Shown piece by piece: positions 50,598 to 56,456 of a stretch of 63,904 nt of DNA (positions are counted from its first letter, which is position 1; every line of letters starts with the position of its first letter). A model generated the notes under the pieces. It worked only from the letters and a program-made list of their open reading frames with translations, was not told the DNA's origin and searched no databases. Made by a program: the position numbers and the translations under genes. Source of the DNA: Anaerolineae bacterium (GTDB lineage Bacteria; Chloroflexota; Anaerolineae; Anaerolineales; DRMV01); NCBI GenBank assembly GCA_011176535.1, contig DUEP01000001.1:1-63904 (forward strand), written 5' to 3'.

Positions 50598-52055
50598 TCA
50601 AGGGGTGGGCGTGGGCGCTGAGGTCGAGGTGGGCGTTGGGGTGGCGGTTACCGCTGTGGGTTGCGGCGTCCGGGCTGCCTTTTGCTCGGCCAAAGTGCGG
50701 CAAATCGCCCGGTTTTCCCGCGAAATCCCCTGCAAAACCGGGTCGTTGGGATACGCCGCGTCCACCCGGTCCATGACCGGCAGCGCCTGATCACAGCGAT
50801 CCAGAGCCGCCAACACCGAAGCGTAGGAGGCGTAGTAAAAGGCCACGGTGGTGTTGGTCAACGGCAGCGGATCGACCGCCACGGGCTGCACATCGTCAAA
50901 GCCCTCGAAGCGCGAGCGCAAGTCGTCCAGAATGGCCTGCACTTTGGCCGGGTTGCACCCTTCCACCGCGCACTTGAGCACCGGCACGGCGCCCTCGTAG
51001 TTTCGGGCCTTGATGTAAATGATGCCCAACTCGGCGTAGGTGTTGGGGTTGGTGGGGTCCAACAGGAGGGCTTTTTCTGCGTTGCGCGAGGCGATGAAAA
51101 ACTCGCCCTGCTGGGCATAGGTTTTGGCAATGGCCACATAGGGAGTGGGATCTTTGATGCCCAGGCGGGCGTTGATGTTGGCCGCCGTGGCGAAGTAGTC
51201 CAGGGCCATCTGGTAATACTGGTCGCGCAGGTCGGGCAAGGTGGCCCGTGAGGCCAGGGTGCGATATTCGATGCCCAGGCGGATGTACAGGAAGGTCAGG
51301 TTGGGGGCCAACTTCACCGCCTCTTGATAGGCGCGGATGGCGGTGTTGTAACGGCCCAACGCCTCCTGCACGAAAGCATACACCCGATGGGTGTCCATCA
51401 AATGCGGCCCCAATTGGACGGCCCGCTCGGCGTATTGCTCTGCCTGATTCCATTTGTTCTGGTCCAGCAACACCTCGGCGAAGAAGGCCAGGGCCAGAGG
51501 ATCGTTAGGGGCCAACAACAAGGCGCGACTGGCGGCGTTTTGGGCTTCGGTGAGCAAGGCAGCCCGTTGATCGGCCGGGGTGAGCGCCGCGGTAGCCGTC
51601 CAGTCCAGCACAAAGGCGCGGATGGCGTGCACGAAAGGATCGTCGGGAGCCAGGTCGGCTGCCTTGTTGGCCGAGGCCAGCGCCTCTTGCAGGCGGGCAT
51701 AGGTTTCGGTGTCCGTGGGGAGCAGGGCCGAAGAGTAGGTTTGAATGCGCGCCAGTTCGGCCCACACATGGGCGTTGTTGGGATCCAGGGTCAGCGCCTG
51801 ACGATACGCCTCGATGGCTGCTTCCAGGTTGCCCGCCACGAACTGCGCCGCCCCCTCCTCGGCCCAGGACCTGGCCGTGCGGGTCGGCGTGGGGGTGGGT
51901 GCGAAAAGGTCCATCGGCTGAATCACGCCCTGGTTGACCAGATGCAACACCCACAACGCCGCCGCGATCAGCGCCAGGTACAGGGCCACCCGACCGGGGC
52001 GTGAATGCTGGCGCTCCTCGCGGAAGCGCAAACCGTCATCACCGCGCAGTTCCAT
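50598..52055 (-). CDS. Membrane-anchored TPR protein (first of two)
   Basis: A 485-residue protein with a short basic cytoplasmic N-terminus, one transmembrane helix (VALYLALIAAALWVLHLV), a TPTPTRT linker and about eight tetratricopeptide-like repeats (for example AIEAYRQALTLDPNNAHVWA and ASRNAEKALLLDPTNPNTYA). It ends in a second Thr-Pro-rich tail. It would sit outside the membrane as a protein-interaction scaffold. It is downstream of, and clearly homologous in layout to, the next TPR gene; both begin MELRG. The transcript likely carries both. Confidence 0.88.
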   Translation of the reverse strand: MELRGDDGLRFREERQHSRPGRVALYLALIAAALWVLHLVNQGVIQPMDLFAPTPTPTRTARSWAEEGAAQFVAGNLEAAIEAYRQALTLDPNNAHVWAELARIQTYSSALLPTDTETYARLQEALASANKAADLAPDDPFVHAIRAFVLDWTATAALTPADQRAALLTEAQNAASRALLLAPNDPLALAFFAEVLLDQNKWNQAEQYAERAVQLGPHLMDTHRVYAFVQEALGRYNTAIRAYQEAVKLAPNLTFLYIRLGIEYRTLASRATLPDLRDQYYQMALDYFATAANINARLGIKDPTPYVAIAKTYAQQGEFFIASRNAEKALLLDPTNPNTYAELGIIYIKARNYEGAVPVLKCAVEGCNPAKVQAILDDLRSRFEGFDDVQPVAVDPLPLTNTTVAFYYASYASVLAALDRCDQALPVMDRVDAAYPNDPVLQGISRENRAICRTLAEQKAARTPQPTAVTATPTPTSTSAPTPTP

Positions 52056-52068
52056 GATCGCTATCCGT

Positions 52069-53370
52069 TCACGGCTGCGGGGTCGGCGTGGGGGTGGGTG
52101 TGGTTTCCCCGGGGGCCGGGGTGCCTTCCGGAGTCCCGGTCAGGTTCGGCTGCGGGGTGAGCGCCAACTCCCGGCAGGTCTTCAAACCGGCCTGCGCGTT
52201 CTCCACGGAAATCTGGTCCGCCGGGATGGTGTTCAGAATGGCCTGGAAGATGGGCACGGCCTCATCACAGCGTCGCAATCGCAGCAGGGCCCAACCGTAG
52301 GTGAAATAGTACTCGGCCACCCGACCGTAGTCCAGCGGCAACCCTTCCACCGTGACGCCATCGGCGGTCAATCCCCCATGCACCACCAGGGCCAGTTCGC
52401 GCACCGCCTCGGCGTACTTGCCGTTCTTGTACAGCATGACGCCGTAATTGCCGTGCATGTAGGGGTCGGTTGGCGCTTCCTGCACCGCGTCGGCGGCGTA
52501 CTGCAACGCCTTGCCGAACTCCCCCAAGGCGGCGTAGGTGCGGGCAATGTAGGTGTCCGGCAAAGGATTGGGCGGGTCCAGGGTGTTGGCCGTCAAAAAC
52601 TCCTCGATGGCCTGGTCCAGCAAGGCCGGATCGCCCTGGCGCTGCCCCAACAAGCGGTAAATCAGGCCCAACTGCAGGTGCCATTCCGGGATGTACTTGT
52701 TCCCCGCAATCGCCTGCTGGTACTCCTTCGCCGCGCGCTCCAGATAGCTTTCCACATACAACACATAGCCGTAAACGGCGTGCACCTCCATGCTGTTGGG
52801 GGCCAAATCCAGGGCCGTGCGAATCTCCTCGTCGGCGCGGGTGTAATTGCCCTGGTCGGCGAGGATTTCGGCATAGACGGCATGCGCCAGCCCCAGGTTC
52901 GGGTCCGCCTCCAGGGCCTGACGCACCGCTACTAAGGCCTCTTCGGTACGGCCCAGGCGGTGCAGCGCCCAGGCCTGCCAGGTCAAGGCCTGGGGGTTGT
53001 TCGGGTTGAGCAACAAAGCGTTTTGGGCGCTGGTCAGGGAAGCCTCAACCGCGCCGCTCAACATCTGCACGCGGGCCAGTTCGATGAACAGGGCTGGATT
53101 GCGCGGATCGGCCAGGATGGCCCCCTGGTAGGTCTCGATGGCGCGGGCCAGTTTGCCCTGGGCGAAGAGGCGCCGCGCCTCGTTCATCACCGCCTCGGGG
53201 TTGGGCGTGGGCGTAGGCGTGGGCACAAACGGCGAGGGCAATGTGGGCACCACGACCTGGTTCAAATAAACCCCAAAGGCAATCAACAGCAACAACACCA
53301 TCACCCGCCAGGGGTTCAGCGGGCGACGGGGCTTGCGCCGCATACTCCATTTCATGCCACGAAGTTCCAT
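52069..53370 (-). CDS. Membrane-anchored TPR protein (second of two)
   Basis: A 433-residue protein of the same design as its neighbour: MELRG start, basic stretch, membrane helix (WRVMVLLLLIAFGVYLNQVV), TPTPTPNP linker, then TPR repeats (AIETYQGAILADPRNPALFI; ALQYAADAVQEAPTDPYMHG) and a Thr/Pro-rich tail. Only 13 bases separate it from the downstream gene, so they are an operon and probably arose by duplication. Two cysteines (RRCDEAVPIF; LKTCRELA) are shared in position with the other copy (DRCDQALPVM; RAICRTLA). Confidence 0.88.
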   Translation of the reverse strand: MELRGMKWSMRRKPRRPLNPWRVMVLLLLIAFGVYLNQVVVPTLPSPFVPTPTPTPNPEAVMNEARRLFAQGKLARAIETYQGAILADPRNPALFIELARVQMLSGAVEASLTSAQNALLLNPNNPQALTWQAWALHRLGRTEEALVAVRQALEADPNLGLAHAVYAEILADQGNYTRADEEIRTALDLAPNSMEVHAVYGYVLYVESYLERAAKEYQQAIAGNKYIPEWHLQLGLIYRLLGQRQGDPALLDQAIEEFLTANTLDPPNPLPDTYIARTYAALGEFGKALQYAADAVQEAPTDPYMHGNYGVMLYKNGKYAEAVRELALVVHGGLTADGVTVEGLPLDYGRVAEYYFTYGWALLRLRRCDEAVPIFQAILNTIPADQISVENAQAGLKTCRELALTPQPNLTGTPEGTPAPGETTPTPTPTPQP

Positions 53371-53505: not shown

Positions 53506-53823
53506 TCAGGCGGCGGAGGCCTCTTCCTGGGACGTGTCTTCATCCCCCAGCGGGAGTTCGCCGGGGAACTCGACCACCGTGAACTTGATGGCCGTGCGCA
53601 CTTTCTCGTTAATGGTCACATCGGTGAACCCGGCGACGAAGGCCACATTGAGGCCGTCCTCGGCCAGGTAACTGCGGGCCAACACCAGGGCTTTCACCGC
53701 CTGGTTGACCGCGCCGGCACCGATGGCCTGGACCTCGGCTCGCCGATGCTCACGAAACACACCGGCGATCGCCCCGGCTACGGCTGAAGTGCGCGAATTG
53801 CCCGAGACTTTGATGATGTCCAT
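53506..53823 (-). CDS. spoVS: SpoVS-family (Alba-like) protein
   Basis: A 105-residue protein with the SpoVS core MDIIKVSGNSRTSAVAGAIA, VQAIGAGAVNQAVKALVLAR and FTDVTINEKVRTAIKFTV. SpoVS is an Alba-like nucleic-acid-binding protein of Bacillus spore formation, also found in non-sporulating Chloroflexi and Deinococci. The ATG at 53823 has AGGAG upstream; an open frame further upstream overlaps the comEC end and is not used. An acidic C-terminal tail of about 15 residues is extra. Confidence 0.92.
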   Translation of the reverse strand: MDIIKVSGNSRTSAVAGAIAGVFREHRRAEVQAIGAGAVNQAVKALVLARSYLAEDGLNVAFVAGFTDVTINEKVRTAIKFTVVEFPGELPLGDEDTSQEEASAA

Positions 53824-53950
53824 GGCGCTTCTCCTTCTCGTCGGCAAAGGATTGCAGATGAAAGGTCTCAGGAGCAGTACCGCTCGGGGCGGTTTGCTTG
53901 TCAGCATTGTACAAGAGAACGCGAGGGAATGCAAGAGGGCTTTTGCACGC

Positions 53951-56335
53951 TCAGCGTTCCGCGGCCACCCACAGCCGCCGCCCATCGGTGATCAGATGCA
54001 TCGTGCCCTCCAGATCGGTGCGCAGCAGCGGCCAGCCCTGCAACGCCTGCAACAAAGCCAGGTTCGGCAACCCCTGCTGCGCCGCGGGGTCCACGGCCAA
54101 CAACAACACCCTGGGGCGCTGCCTCTGCAACCAGGCCGGGTCGTTCCAGCCCGCGCGACCGTGCCCCGCCAACAGGAAAACCGCAGGCGCCGGGGGCAGC
54201 CGGCGGGCGGCCGCCCCACCCCAGGGCACAAAAGGAAACACCCCGCGAAAATCGCCGTACCCCAGGGTCAACACCACCCCCTGGGGTTGCACTTCCTGGA
54301 TCCGAAGGGTGATCCCCGCATCCAACCGCACCTGCCCGCCCACGGGCAGGGTCTGCACCCTCACCCCCGCCTCACGCCAACGCGCGACCTGCCCGGCCAC
54401 CCTCGCCGGGCCGGGCGTCCAGGGGACAACCACCACCGCCGGGCGGTAGCGTTGCGTCGCCTCGTCCAGGCCGCGCAAGTTGTCGGGGTCGGCCGAGGCC
54501 ACCAGGAGCACATCCAGGGTGGTGCGCAGCAAAGGCAGGCGCTGCCCCAACGCTTGCTGAAGCGCCAGGGCGTCGCCCCCGCCGTTGATGAGCACCACCT
54601 TTCCCGAGGGAGTGCGCAACAGCAGCGTCTCCCCGCCGCGGGTGTCCAGCAGCCAGAGGTGCAGCCGTCGGTCGGGGGCGGCCAGGGCCTCATGGGCCAG
54701 CAGGGTAGCCAACAAGGTCGCGCCCAGCAGGAGGGGCATCCGCTTCAGGGTGGGCACCCACACCCCGGGCGTGGCACGCTTCCGTTGGGTCCAGAGGTGG
54801 GGGAGGCCCCAAAGGAGCAGGTAGTACCCCAGGACATGGGGCCACCCAAAGGGGGCCAGGGTGACAGTCCGCCAGGGGAGGTTCCCAAACACCTGCACAG
54901 CGCGGATGGTGTAGGCCACCCAGGGCCATGCCAGCCAGGCGGCCAGGCGGCCTGCCGGCTCCCAGAGCAGGGCCAGCAACAGGGCGATGCCGCCGCTGAG
55001 CATCAGGGGCGCCTGGGCCAGCAAGATGAGAGGGTTGCTCACCAAAGCCACCAGCGAGAGCCGATGGAAGTGCCAGGCGGTGATAGGCAGGGTGGTCAGT
55101 TGGGCGGCCAGGGTGAGCAACAGGGCGTCGCTCAAGGTGGGCAGAATACGGCGGGTGAGGTTCGGCCCCAGCAGGGGACGCAACAGGACGGACGCACCCC
55201 GGGTGATGGGTTCGGCGTAGCGCATCAGCCCCCAAGTGGCGCCGAACGAGAGTTGGAAGCCCACATCCCAAAGCACGGTGGGCCGCAGCAGGGCCATCAG
55301 CGCGGCGGCGAAGAGCAAGGCGGTGTAAGGGTGGTTGGGCCGGGCGGTGCGGCGGGCCAGCACGGCCAGGCTGCCCATGAGGGCGGCCCGCACCACAGCG
55401 GCGTCGGCGCCCACGAACACGGTGTACACCCCAATGCCCGACACGGCCGCCAGGCTCCCCCACAACGGGCCCCACCAGCGGCCCAGCCAGGTCATGAGTA
55501 CCCCCGCGATGAGGGTGATGTTGAAGCCGCTGATGGCGATGATGTGGGCCGTGCCCGTGTCACGAAAGGCCTGGTAGAGACCCTCAGGGATGCGGCTATC
55601 GTCTCCCAAAAGGATGCCTGCCAGCAGCCCGGCTTCGGGCTGGGGCCAGAGGCGCGCCACCTCGAGCAAAGCCCGGCGACGCAGGGCAAAGAGGGCCGCC
55701 AGGAAGGGGTTGCCCTGGCCACGGGCCAGCATCCCCACCCGCCGCGCTTTCAGGACGGCGTAAATACCCTGCCGGGCGAGGTAATCGCGGTAGGAGAAGG
55801 CGCGGCCCTGAGGCGGACTGCGCAGGTCGCCGCGCAGCACCACCCGGTCGCCGTAACGCAAGCCGCGGGCCTCAGCCCAGGGAGCCCGGGCCAGCACGAG
55901 GCCATGGACGGGAAAATGGCCCGTTTCGTCGGCAAAGCGCAGGCGCTCGGCCCGCACCCGCAGCACGGCGCGGTCGCCCCGGCGCTCAGGAGGGGCGCTC
56001 AGCACCCCGACCAGGACCACCTCACGGCCCGTGTCGCGATAGGCGGCCACAGCATCCGGGGCGCTCCAATCAGGCAGCGCCGCGCGGTAGCGGGCCACGC
56101 CCAGGAGCGAGACGGCTGCCAGGCTCAGCCAGGCGAGGGCAGGCCGACGGGCCAGGGCCGCGCGCAGGGCCAGCAAGGTCAACCCGGCGCCCAAAGCATA
56201 GGGCCATGACACAGCCCAGCGTGCGCCCAGGGCCACACCCAGCAGCCAGGCCAGGCTATGCGCCAAAAGCGGCAACCGCTGCCACCACGGGCGCACCCTG
56301 CCGGATAAGCGCGCTGTGGGCGGAAGAGGCGCCAT
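53951..56335 (-). CDS. comEC: ComEC/Rec2 competence channel with degenerate MBL domain
   Basis: A 794-residue polytopic membrane protein of the ComEC/Rec2 family that imports single-stranded DNA. After two helices comes the OB-like DUF4131 region (YRDTGREVVLVGVLSAPPER), then the competence domain (GTAHIIAISGFNITLIAGVL; DVGFQLSFGATWGLM). The C-terminal metallo-beta-lactamase-like domain is present but the metal motif is lost: where THxHxDH is expected it reads VASADPDNLRGLD, and the usual DxGxG is INGGGD. It may thus act as a channel without nuclease function. The ATG at 56335 is chosen. Confidence 0.88.
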   Translation of the reverse strand: MAPLPPTARLSGRVRPWWQRLPLLAHSLAWLLGVALGARWAVSWPYALGAGLTLLALRAALARRPALAWLSLAAVSLLGVARYRAALPDWSAPDAVAAYRDTGREVVLVGVLSAPPERRGDRAVLRVRAERLRFADETGHFPVHGLVLARAPWAEARGLRYGDRVVLRGDLRSPPQGRAFSYRDYLARQGIYAVLKARRVGMLARGQGNPFLAALFALRRRALLEVARLWPQPEAGLLAGILLGDDSRIPEGLYQAFRDTGTAHIIAISGFNITLIAGVLMTWLGRWWGPLWGSLAAVSGIGVYTVFVGADAAVVRAALMGSLAVLARRTARPNHPYTALLFAAALMALLRPTVLWDVGFQLSFGATWGLMRYAEPITRGASVLLRPLLGPNLTRRILPTLSDALLLTLAAQLTTLPITAWHFHRLSLVALVSNPLILLAQAPLMLSGGIALLLALLWEPAGRLAAWLAWPWVAYTIRAVQVFGNLPWRTVTLAPFGWPHVLGYYLLLWGLPHLWTQRKRATPGVWVPTLKRMPLLLGATLLATLLAHEALAAPDRRLHLWLLDTRGGETLLLRTPSGKVVLINGGGDALALQQALGQRLPLLRTTLDVLLVASADPDNLRGLDEATQRYRPAVVVVPWTPGPARVAGQVARWREAGVRVQTLPVGGQVRLDAGITLRIQEVQPQGVVLTLGYGDFRGVFPFVPWGGAAARRLPPAPAVFLLAGHGRAGWNDPAWLQRQRPRVLLLAVDPAAQQGLPNLALLQALQGWPLLRTDLEGTMHLITDGRRLWVAAER

Positions 56336-56456
56336 GGCACAGCCCCCGTGCTTCAACCCCACCACACCCCGGGCGACAGGGTTGTGGGGTCAATCCCCAT
56401 TCCTCCCCGAAGCACAGTGCCTCGTAGGGGGAAGGGCAGCGAAAGCCTTGAAAGCC

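Follow-up and report, generated by a model that had tools for sequence, protein, structure and literature searches.

How would a DNA import channel of the ComEC family deal with the second strand when its own nuclease domain has lost the metal site? The question is raised by a gene in positions 1 to 63,904 of contig DUEP01000001.1 from an Anaerolineae bacterium (assembly GCA_011176535.1; GTDB lineage Chloroflexota; Anaerolineae; Anaerolineales; DRMV01), a stretch of 63,904 nucleotides to which we refer as the window. A preliminary description of this gene held that the competence membrane domain looks complete but that the C-terminal nuclease-like domain lacks its metal motif, such that, if DNA uptake still works, another enzyme must degrade the strand, or the domain has become structural. 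We consider it reasonably probable that the protein is a ComEC import channel whose nuclease domain is a pseudo-enzyme, selected as a cover or guide, and that the second strand is removed by a separate enzyme or displaced.

The window comEC gene and its metal site

The features of the gene are collected in Table 1. Besides the listed GTG start, an in-frame ATG at 56335 is an alternative; the segment singled out previously (53951-54720, minus strand) corresponds to the C-terminal ~256 residues of the product. A profile search of the 2.27-Mb, 97%-complete genome returned this gene as the sole match to PF03772, and a second ComEC was thus rejected. The near-complete match to that profile bears out the claim that the membrane domain is whole, and of the 31 channel columns with at least 90% conservation among intact Chloroflexota ComECs, the window protein matches 29. 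An N-terminal OB fold (DUF4131), common but not universal in ComEC/Rec2 proteins, is present as well. The protein scores below the cut-off of the NCBIfam equivalog TIGR00361 (79.9 against 190 bits, best stretch residues 189-457) and passes the subfamily-domain model TIGR00360 (73.6 against 36.5), and is therefore filed here as a Competence-domain (ComEC-family) protein, not as the equivalog TIGR00361. Directly downstream lies a gene for a SpoVS-family protein (53506-53985, minus), and two adjoining TPR-repeat proteins, alike in layout and each with one N-terminal hydrophobic segment by eye, are encoded at 50598-53370 (minus).

Table 1. Features of the comEC gene in the window
Feature	Coordinates	Strand	Details
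comEC ORF	53951..56365	minus	804 aa, GTG start as listed
OB fold / DUF4131	55742..56209	minus	residues 53-208; Pfam PF13567, E 3.5e-22
Competence channel domain	54794..55615	minus	residues 251-524; PF03772 positions 1-266 of 270, E 1.4e-48
Pseudo-MBL domain	53954..54670	minus	residues 566-804; metallo-beta-lactamase fold without full metal site
ASADPDN	54479..54499	minus	residues 623-629; where T-H-x-[H/D]-x-D-H is expected
VFPFVPWG	54218..54241	minus	region of metal ligand D700
LAGHGRAG	54149..54172	minus	place of H725-H-G-S728; H725 replaced by G, second His kept
QGLPNL	54059..54076	minus	place of conserved N-x-[F/Y]-G-H-P element; His replaced by Leu

In the Moorella glycerini nuclease (structure 9ic4), H598, D600, D602, H603 and D700 are described as metal-coordinating, and H725 and S728 as putative DNA-binding residues (PMC12455585). 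The window sequence at the motif, LDVLLVASADPDNLRGL, contains ASADPDN where the preliminary description had expected THxHxDH; the place was right, but the ComEC norm given in PMC12455585 is H-x-[H/D]-x-D-H and not strictly HxHxDH. In M. glycerini numbering, the motif line has S for H598 and N for H603, with D retained at both D600 and D602. The N-x-[F/Y]-G-H-P element has its His replaced as well; we would tentatively equate it with the pin loop described for L. pneumophila (PMC12455585).

Proteins were called intact or degenerate from a single MAFFT alignment (225 C-terminal domains from Chloroflexota), in which the eight active-site columns read S D D N V G H L in the window against H [HDEQ] D H D H H H in intact proteins. 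Six of these, the equivalents of H598, D600, D602, H603, D700 and H725, are treated as the core metal-site columns; the window has S, D, D, N, V and G at them and keeps two of six, both of them motif-line Asp, with both motif His and the D700 and H725 equivalents gone. The place of D700 is occupied by V, P or a gap depending on the alignment, and by Asp in none. Replacement of the motif at residues 623-629, and of other ligands besides, was thus correctly described. The motif has not moved, either: H-x-[HDEQN]-x-D-H is absent from the whole window protein, and a whole-ORF search found it in 0 of 64 ComEC ORFs of the order (two are truncated ahead of the domain), so that relocation within the protein was rejected. 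The same pattern is present in 47 of 47 intact ComECs, a class that is defined by it.

Intact and degenerate ComECs in the order and beyond

The sample drew on a PF03772 search of 81 genomes, with a match in 64 and none in 17; on a sequence search of which the best 80 matches were kept; and on two wider surveys with 30 loci read in each, shared ones included, plus 60 chosen stretches. Four of the 64 genomes (G027, G036, G058 and G069) were left out as short fragments, and order genomes G244 and G275 were also left out. The 240 unique ComECs read comprise 47 intact, 178 degenerate and 15 without the domain on the same ORF.

For the window's order, counted as its own genome plus those of its family and order, the result is 62 degenerate ComECs and none intact, with two more cut by contig ends. 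The loss is hence clade-wide within this sample, a point that the preliminary description had raised, with all 62 readable ComECs degenerate in the alignment; an annotation or assembly error in one genome was rejected on the same count. No core column is kept in 28 of these 62 proteins, one in 26, and two in eight, against six of six, by definition, in the 47 intact ones. Elsewhere in the class there are 28 intact and 31 degenerate ComECs, and elsewhere in the phylum 11 and 25 (with 13 lacking the domain on the ORF), so that class and phylum outside the order contribute 39 intact versus 56 degenerate; the named loci add eight and 60, respectively.

On a ComEC tree made with FastTree only, from OB-fold and channel columns, the two states require at least 17 changes, a parsimony minimum that by itself is blind to loss versus gain; because the intact rows share their motif with the distant M. 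glycerini enzyme, we infer repeated loss. Intact rows are missing altogether from one clade of 112 rows (SH-like support 99). L059, from the same order and degenerate, lies outside this clade on a long branch, and L266, labeled Anaerolineales by its depositor, is intact, yet groups with rows outside the order. L082 and L163, outside the order and called degenerate, keep four or five of the six core columns.

Of the 15 ComECs whose ORF lacks the domain, L039 and L040 run into contig ends, and L169 stops about 0.5 kb before a contig end. Three (L109, L148 and L167, of families f84, f67 and f95 of the phylum) have a channel ORF of about 474-520 aa and the MBL domain on a second ORF, with the motif present in L109 and L148 and Gln for the first His in L167; the second ORF of L109 begins with a membrane-segment-like stretch. 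These splits reflect either gene fission or a frameshift. For the other nine, the MBL domain was not found anywhere on the locus; these loci (L089-L093, L103, L108, L170 and L171, of families f68 and f78) have ComEC ORFs of about 509-570 aa.

Competence genes and candidate nucleases

The companion genes named in the preliminary description, comEA, comF and pilus genes, all have counterparts in the window genome. A ComEA-type protein with one membrane segment (by eye), SLBB and helix-hairpin-helix passes TIGR00426 (60.8 bits, cut-off 53.1) and falls below the comE model TIGR01259 (97.6 bits, cut-off 152), and DprA is above its cut-off at 264 bits. Contig C42 (L200) has a Tad-pilus run with a CpaB-like protein (just below cut-off), a CpaE-like protein, a TadA-type ATPase (below cut-off) and two T2SSF proteins, directly followed on the same strand by a ComF-family gene (TIGR00201, 93.6 bits, below the cut-off of 234) and a ribosome hibernation factor; C20 has a further Tad-like cluster. 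On contig C17, a 321-aa protein with a helix-hairpin-helix-like start (L204:6504-7466, plus) is encoded in a region matched by HHH_3; the product of the next gene has what looks by eye like a membrane segment.

Frames of 149-389 aa with a ComEA-like match occur in 39 of 41 order genomes versus 35 of 39 genomes with an intact ComEC (counts read off a match table, several of the matches being below the model cut-off), which suggests that ComEA is kept about equally with dead and intact ComECs. comEA adjoins comEC in 10 of the 39 intact genomes, in 0 of 41 order genomes, and in 2 of 28 intact genomes of the same class; with just those two adjoining in the class, we take the linkage as phylogeny, and reject it as a marker of ComEC state.

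The absence of comEA beside comEC in the order genomes compared would nevertheless fit a different explanation, namely that the order's ComEC has left transformation and its channel has some other use, e.g., to take up nutrients or DNA that is single-stranded from the outset, with no strand-degrading enzyme needed. It would be favored further by the pilus genes, as the T2SSE matches above cut-off in the genome are two Tad-type ATPases only and no type IVa pilus ATPase was seen among them. We regard this explanation as unlikely, in that ComEA-, ComF- and DprA-like genes persist and, of the 31 channel columns with at least 90% conservation in intact proteins, the order keeps 96%. Moreover, Tad pili do serve DNA uptake in Liberibacter crescens, where they are reported to be required for it (PMC8513845).

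If the channel with a pseudo-nuclease still imports DNA, as we favor, the separate nuclease suggested in the preliminary description becomes of interest. The EndA family (PF01223) is found in 0 of 31 genomes, the window genome included, whereas in a control set of 14 named genomes, no Streptococcus being named there, four gave matches, including Lactococcus lactis. SNase is absent from the window genome and present in 15 of the 31. No recurrent nuclease is evident beside comEC, in that no large neighbor cluster looked like one in 97 loci, the clusters being read without profile annotation. Nine Lactamase_B matches in the window genome are, by eye, glyoxalase-like, RNase J, RNase Z, CPSF-like, flavodiiron-like, UlaG-like and others; none shows an evident export signal and they look cytosolic (also by eye), and a substitute MBL protein was rejected on this basis.

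The search did yield one candidate strand-degrading enzyme, a putatively exported, ExeM/NucH-like ORF of 1208 aa (L312:3670-7293, minus, contig C80) with LTD, OB and exo/endonuclease domains and a lipobox-like start (by eye) resembling that of a lipoprotein. A surface lipoprotein of this kind could be the specific replacement, recruited in the manner of pneumococcal EndA, and would be a special case of the explanation that we prefer; its occurrence in the same genome speaks for it, as does the precedent of EndA, which is described as membrane-located, with clustering that depends on ComEA (PMC3764208). However, the ORF reaches 207 bits against an ExeM/NucH cut-off of 300, which only one (from G028) of four ExeM/NucH-like proteins scanned exceeds, it sits on a contig with no known link to com genes, and exo/endonuclease matches on frames of more than 1000 aa occur in only 10 of the 31 genomes, one of them weak. 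We thus find it doubtful that this protein is the replacement.

Fold, constraint and relation to known systems

The C-terminal domain itself is predicted with high confidence to have the MBL fold of the ComEC nuclease. An AlphaFold2 model of the window domain has a mean pLDDT of 93.5 and pTM of 0.92; its best Foldseek match is 9ic4 (E 1.1e-17, TM 0.84 by query length), and VIA-align superimposes the two over 236 residues (Z 29.5, rmsd 2.0; next match Z 22.4). A profile of 45 degenerate domains (alignment A2, built from the window and 44 of the 58 eligible named loci) can be aligned over its full length with the 9ic4 sequence (E 8.3e-32) and matches the full-length ComEC entry 30bt with E 1.9e-29. 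The model of the whole window ComEC (pLDDT 87.4, pTM 0.83) also has 9ic4 as its first match in the fold search, and there is no full-length ComEC entry among the matches listed, although the sequence search does find such entries (30bt and others). Pfam gives no Lactamase_B match in the window protein. The 45 homologous domains give none either with an E-value limit of 0.1, although a single one of them has a weak hit (E 0.065) to PF25281, a different MBL-like model. Sequence, profile, predicted structure and the survey of the order together support the view that the domain is a relative of the nuclease stripped of its metal site.

Alternatively, the domain could still be a nuclease that draws its ligands from other residues, e.g., from acidic residues where D602 and H725 once stood, or that uses one metal. 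Of 61 order members (L059 left out), 28 have E and 8 have D at the D602 column and 29 have D or E at the H725 column, 12 of the 62 order proteins have three H, D or E at the six core places, and the window keeps its two motif Asp, all of which would be compatible with residual catalysis. We think it very unlikely, as no former ligand column has one acidic residue or His in at least 80% of the 45 domains (by inspection), and D700 is G in 44 of 61. The first motif His has become S, G or A in 57 of these 61 proteins and is retained in none, H725 is His in one (L022), and the His of GHP is His in none. The mean number of His per domain is 3.5 in the order versus 9.7 in intact proteins, and no new acidic or His cluster at the old site is evident, by inspection, among residues at least 80% conserved in the order's domain.

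Mean pairwise identity of the C-terminal domain is 35% within the order versus 45% among intact proteins, and that of the channel 48% versus 42%, which points to milder constraint on the domain than dN/dS does; of the 41 MBL-domain columns on which intact proteins agree to at least 90%, the order retains 51%, several glycines, prolines and leucines staying and the His and Asp of the site going. Among 40 close pairs in the order, median dN/dS is 0.119 for the dead domain (range 0.043-0.532), 0.127 for the channel and 0.203 for the OB fold, and intact MBL domains elsewhere give 0.124 (5 pairs), all by simple Nei-Gojobori counting on pairs that share member sequences. Degenerate domains outside the order are less constrained (median 0.258, 27 pairs), which suggests that some lineages may be drifting. 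The low dN/dS favors the earlier suggestion that the domain has become structural over decay, and supports its being kept by selection. That it is a decaying relic without function seems hardly credible, even with the higher dN/dS in degenerate groups outside the order and the nine loci of families f68 and f78 whose lack of an MBL domain suggests that it may be dispensable, given its low dN/dS, equal to that of intact domains, its confident fold prediction, and its near-full length across the order (median 247 aa versus 260 in intact proteins).

The explanation that we favor, a ComEC channel with a selected pseudo-nuclease, would then run as follows. The fold and its place in the protein are kept and the two-metal site is gone, so that catalysis would be lost. 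Together with the OB fold, the pseudo-domain would most likely cover the channel entrance as a structural part or guide the strand there, and DNA import through the channel would continue, as the retained ComEA-, ComF-, DprA-like and Tad-pilus genes suggest. The second strand could be removed by a separate enzyme outside the membrane, by analogy with EndA in pneumococcus, or alternatively could be displaced at the channel and not digested; members of the order probably deal with the unwanted strand in some other way than with ComEC. A broader version, in which the whole order imports DNA without a channel nuclease, the domain being a noncatalytic strand guide or separator and the second strand being displaced or handled by dispersed, nonhomologous enzymes, is possible but tentative. 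We note that the aromatic residue of N-x-[F/Y]-G-H-P is mostly missing in the order, which weakens the case for a guide role like that of ComECs described so far (PMC12455585).

If this is correct, many ComECs scored as lacking Lactamase_B by Pfam would carry a cryptic pseudo-nuclease domain. Pimentel and Zhang surveyed ComEC domain gain and loss by Pfam (PMC6299819), and a domain invisible to Pfam, like the one here, would presumably count as absent in such a survey. Counts of ComECs with "no Lactamase_B" may thus hide folded, ligand-free domains. The related genomes with intact or dead domains, similar comEA retention and equal strength of selection form a natural comparison, by which the catalytic and architectural roles of the domain could be told apart and each become testable.

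Dead MBL domains have a counterpart in eukaryotes, where the Integrator subunit INTS9 is a catalytically dead MBL protein and the structural partner of an active paralogue. Integrator structures are among the Foldseek matches of the window model, and the likeness lies in an MBL fold without a working metal site; the difference is that INTS9 is eukaryotic and pairs with an active paralogue, a pairing not known for the window protein. Among ComECs, the closest likeness in fold is to Moorella (M. glycerini 9ic4 and M. thermoacetica), through the predicted fold over 236 residues, the C-terminal place in a channel protein and the collinear profile; the window differs in that H598, H603, D700 and H725 are replaced, with S-x-D-x-D-N for H-x-D-x-D-H and GLP for GHP. 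Alanine at most of the M. glycerini ligands leaves the enzyme virtually inactive in vitro (D600A is about fivefold reduced), the equivalent L. pneumophila ligand mutants fail to transform, and B. subtilis mutants are less affected, as reported in PMC12455585; PMC8579336 likewise describes residual transformation in a B. subtilis metal-site mutant. A dead domain would thus be costly in L. pneumophila, which counts against our explanation; the pin loop is essential there too (PMC12455585).

In a literature search of mostly open-access papers, without preprints, no paper among the matches listed concerned ComEC nuclease loss in Chloroflexota, and within the same scope no report of an order-wide, selectively kept dead ComEC nuclease domain was found. 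Two bacterial ComECs nonetheless invite comparison. That of Helicobacter pylori is described as missing the MBL domain (PMC12455585) and so resembles the window protein in having no ComEC nuclease, but here the domain is still there, conserved and with a predicted fold. How strands are handled by ComECs that lack one is an open question according to Silale et al. (PMC8579336). Pneumococcal ComEC is closer, with a full-length MBL-like C-terminal domain whose metal ligands are substituted, in an organism that uses EndA (PMC5031224, PMC8579336, PMC3764208); for S. pneumoniae, it has been proposed that the domain is catalytically dead and retained as a guide (PMC8579336). The pneumococcal changes are conservative (Asn for His, Glu for Asp, Asn for Asp), with an effect on activity that PMC8579336 calls unclear, whereas the changes in the window are more radical, PF01223 is found in none of the 31 genomes, and the state covers the sampled order. 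The dead ComEC domain is thus of a known kind, with S. pneumoniae as precedent, and what is new is that it is held across the sampled order under selection.
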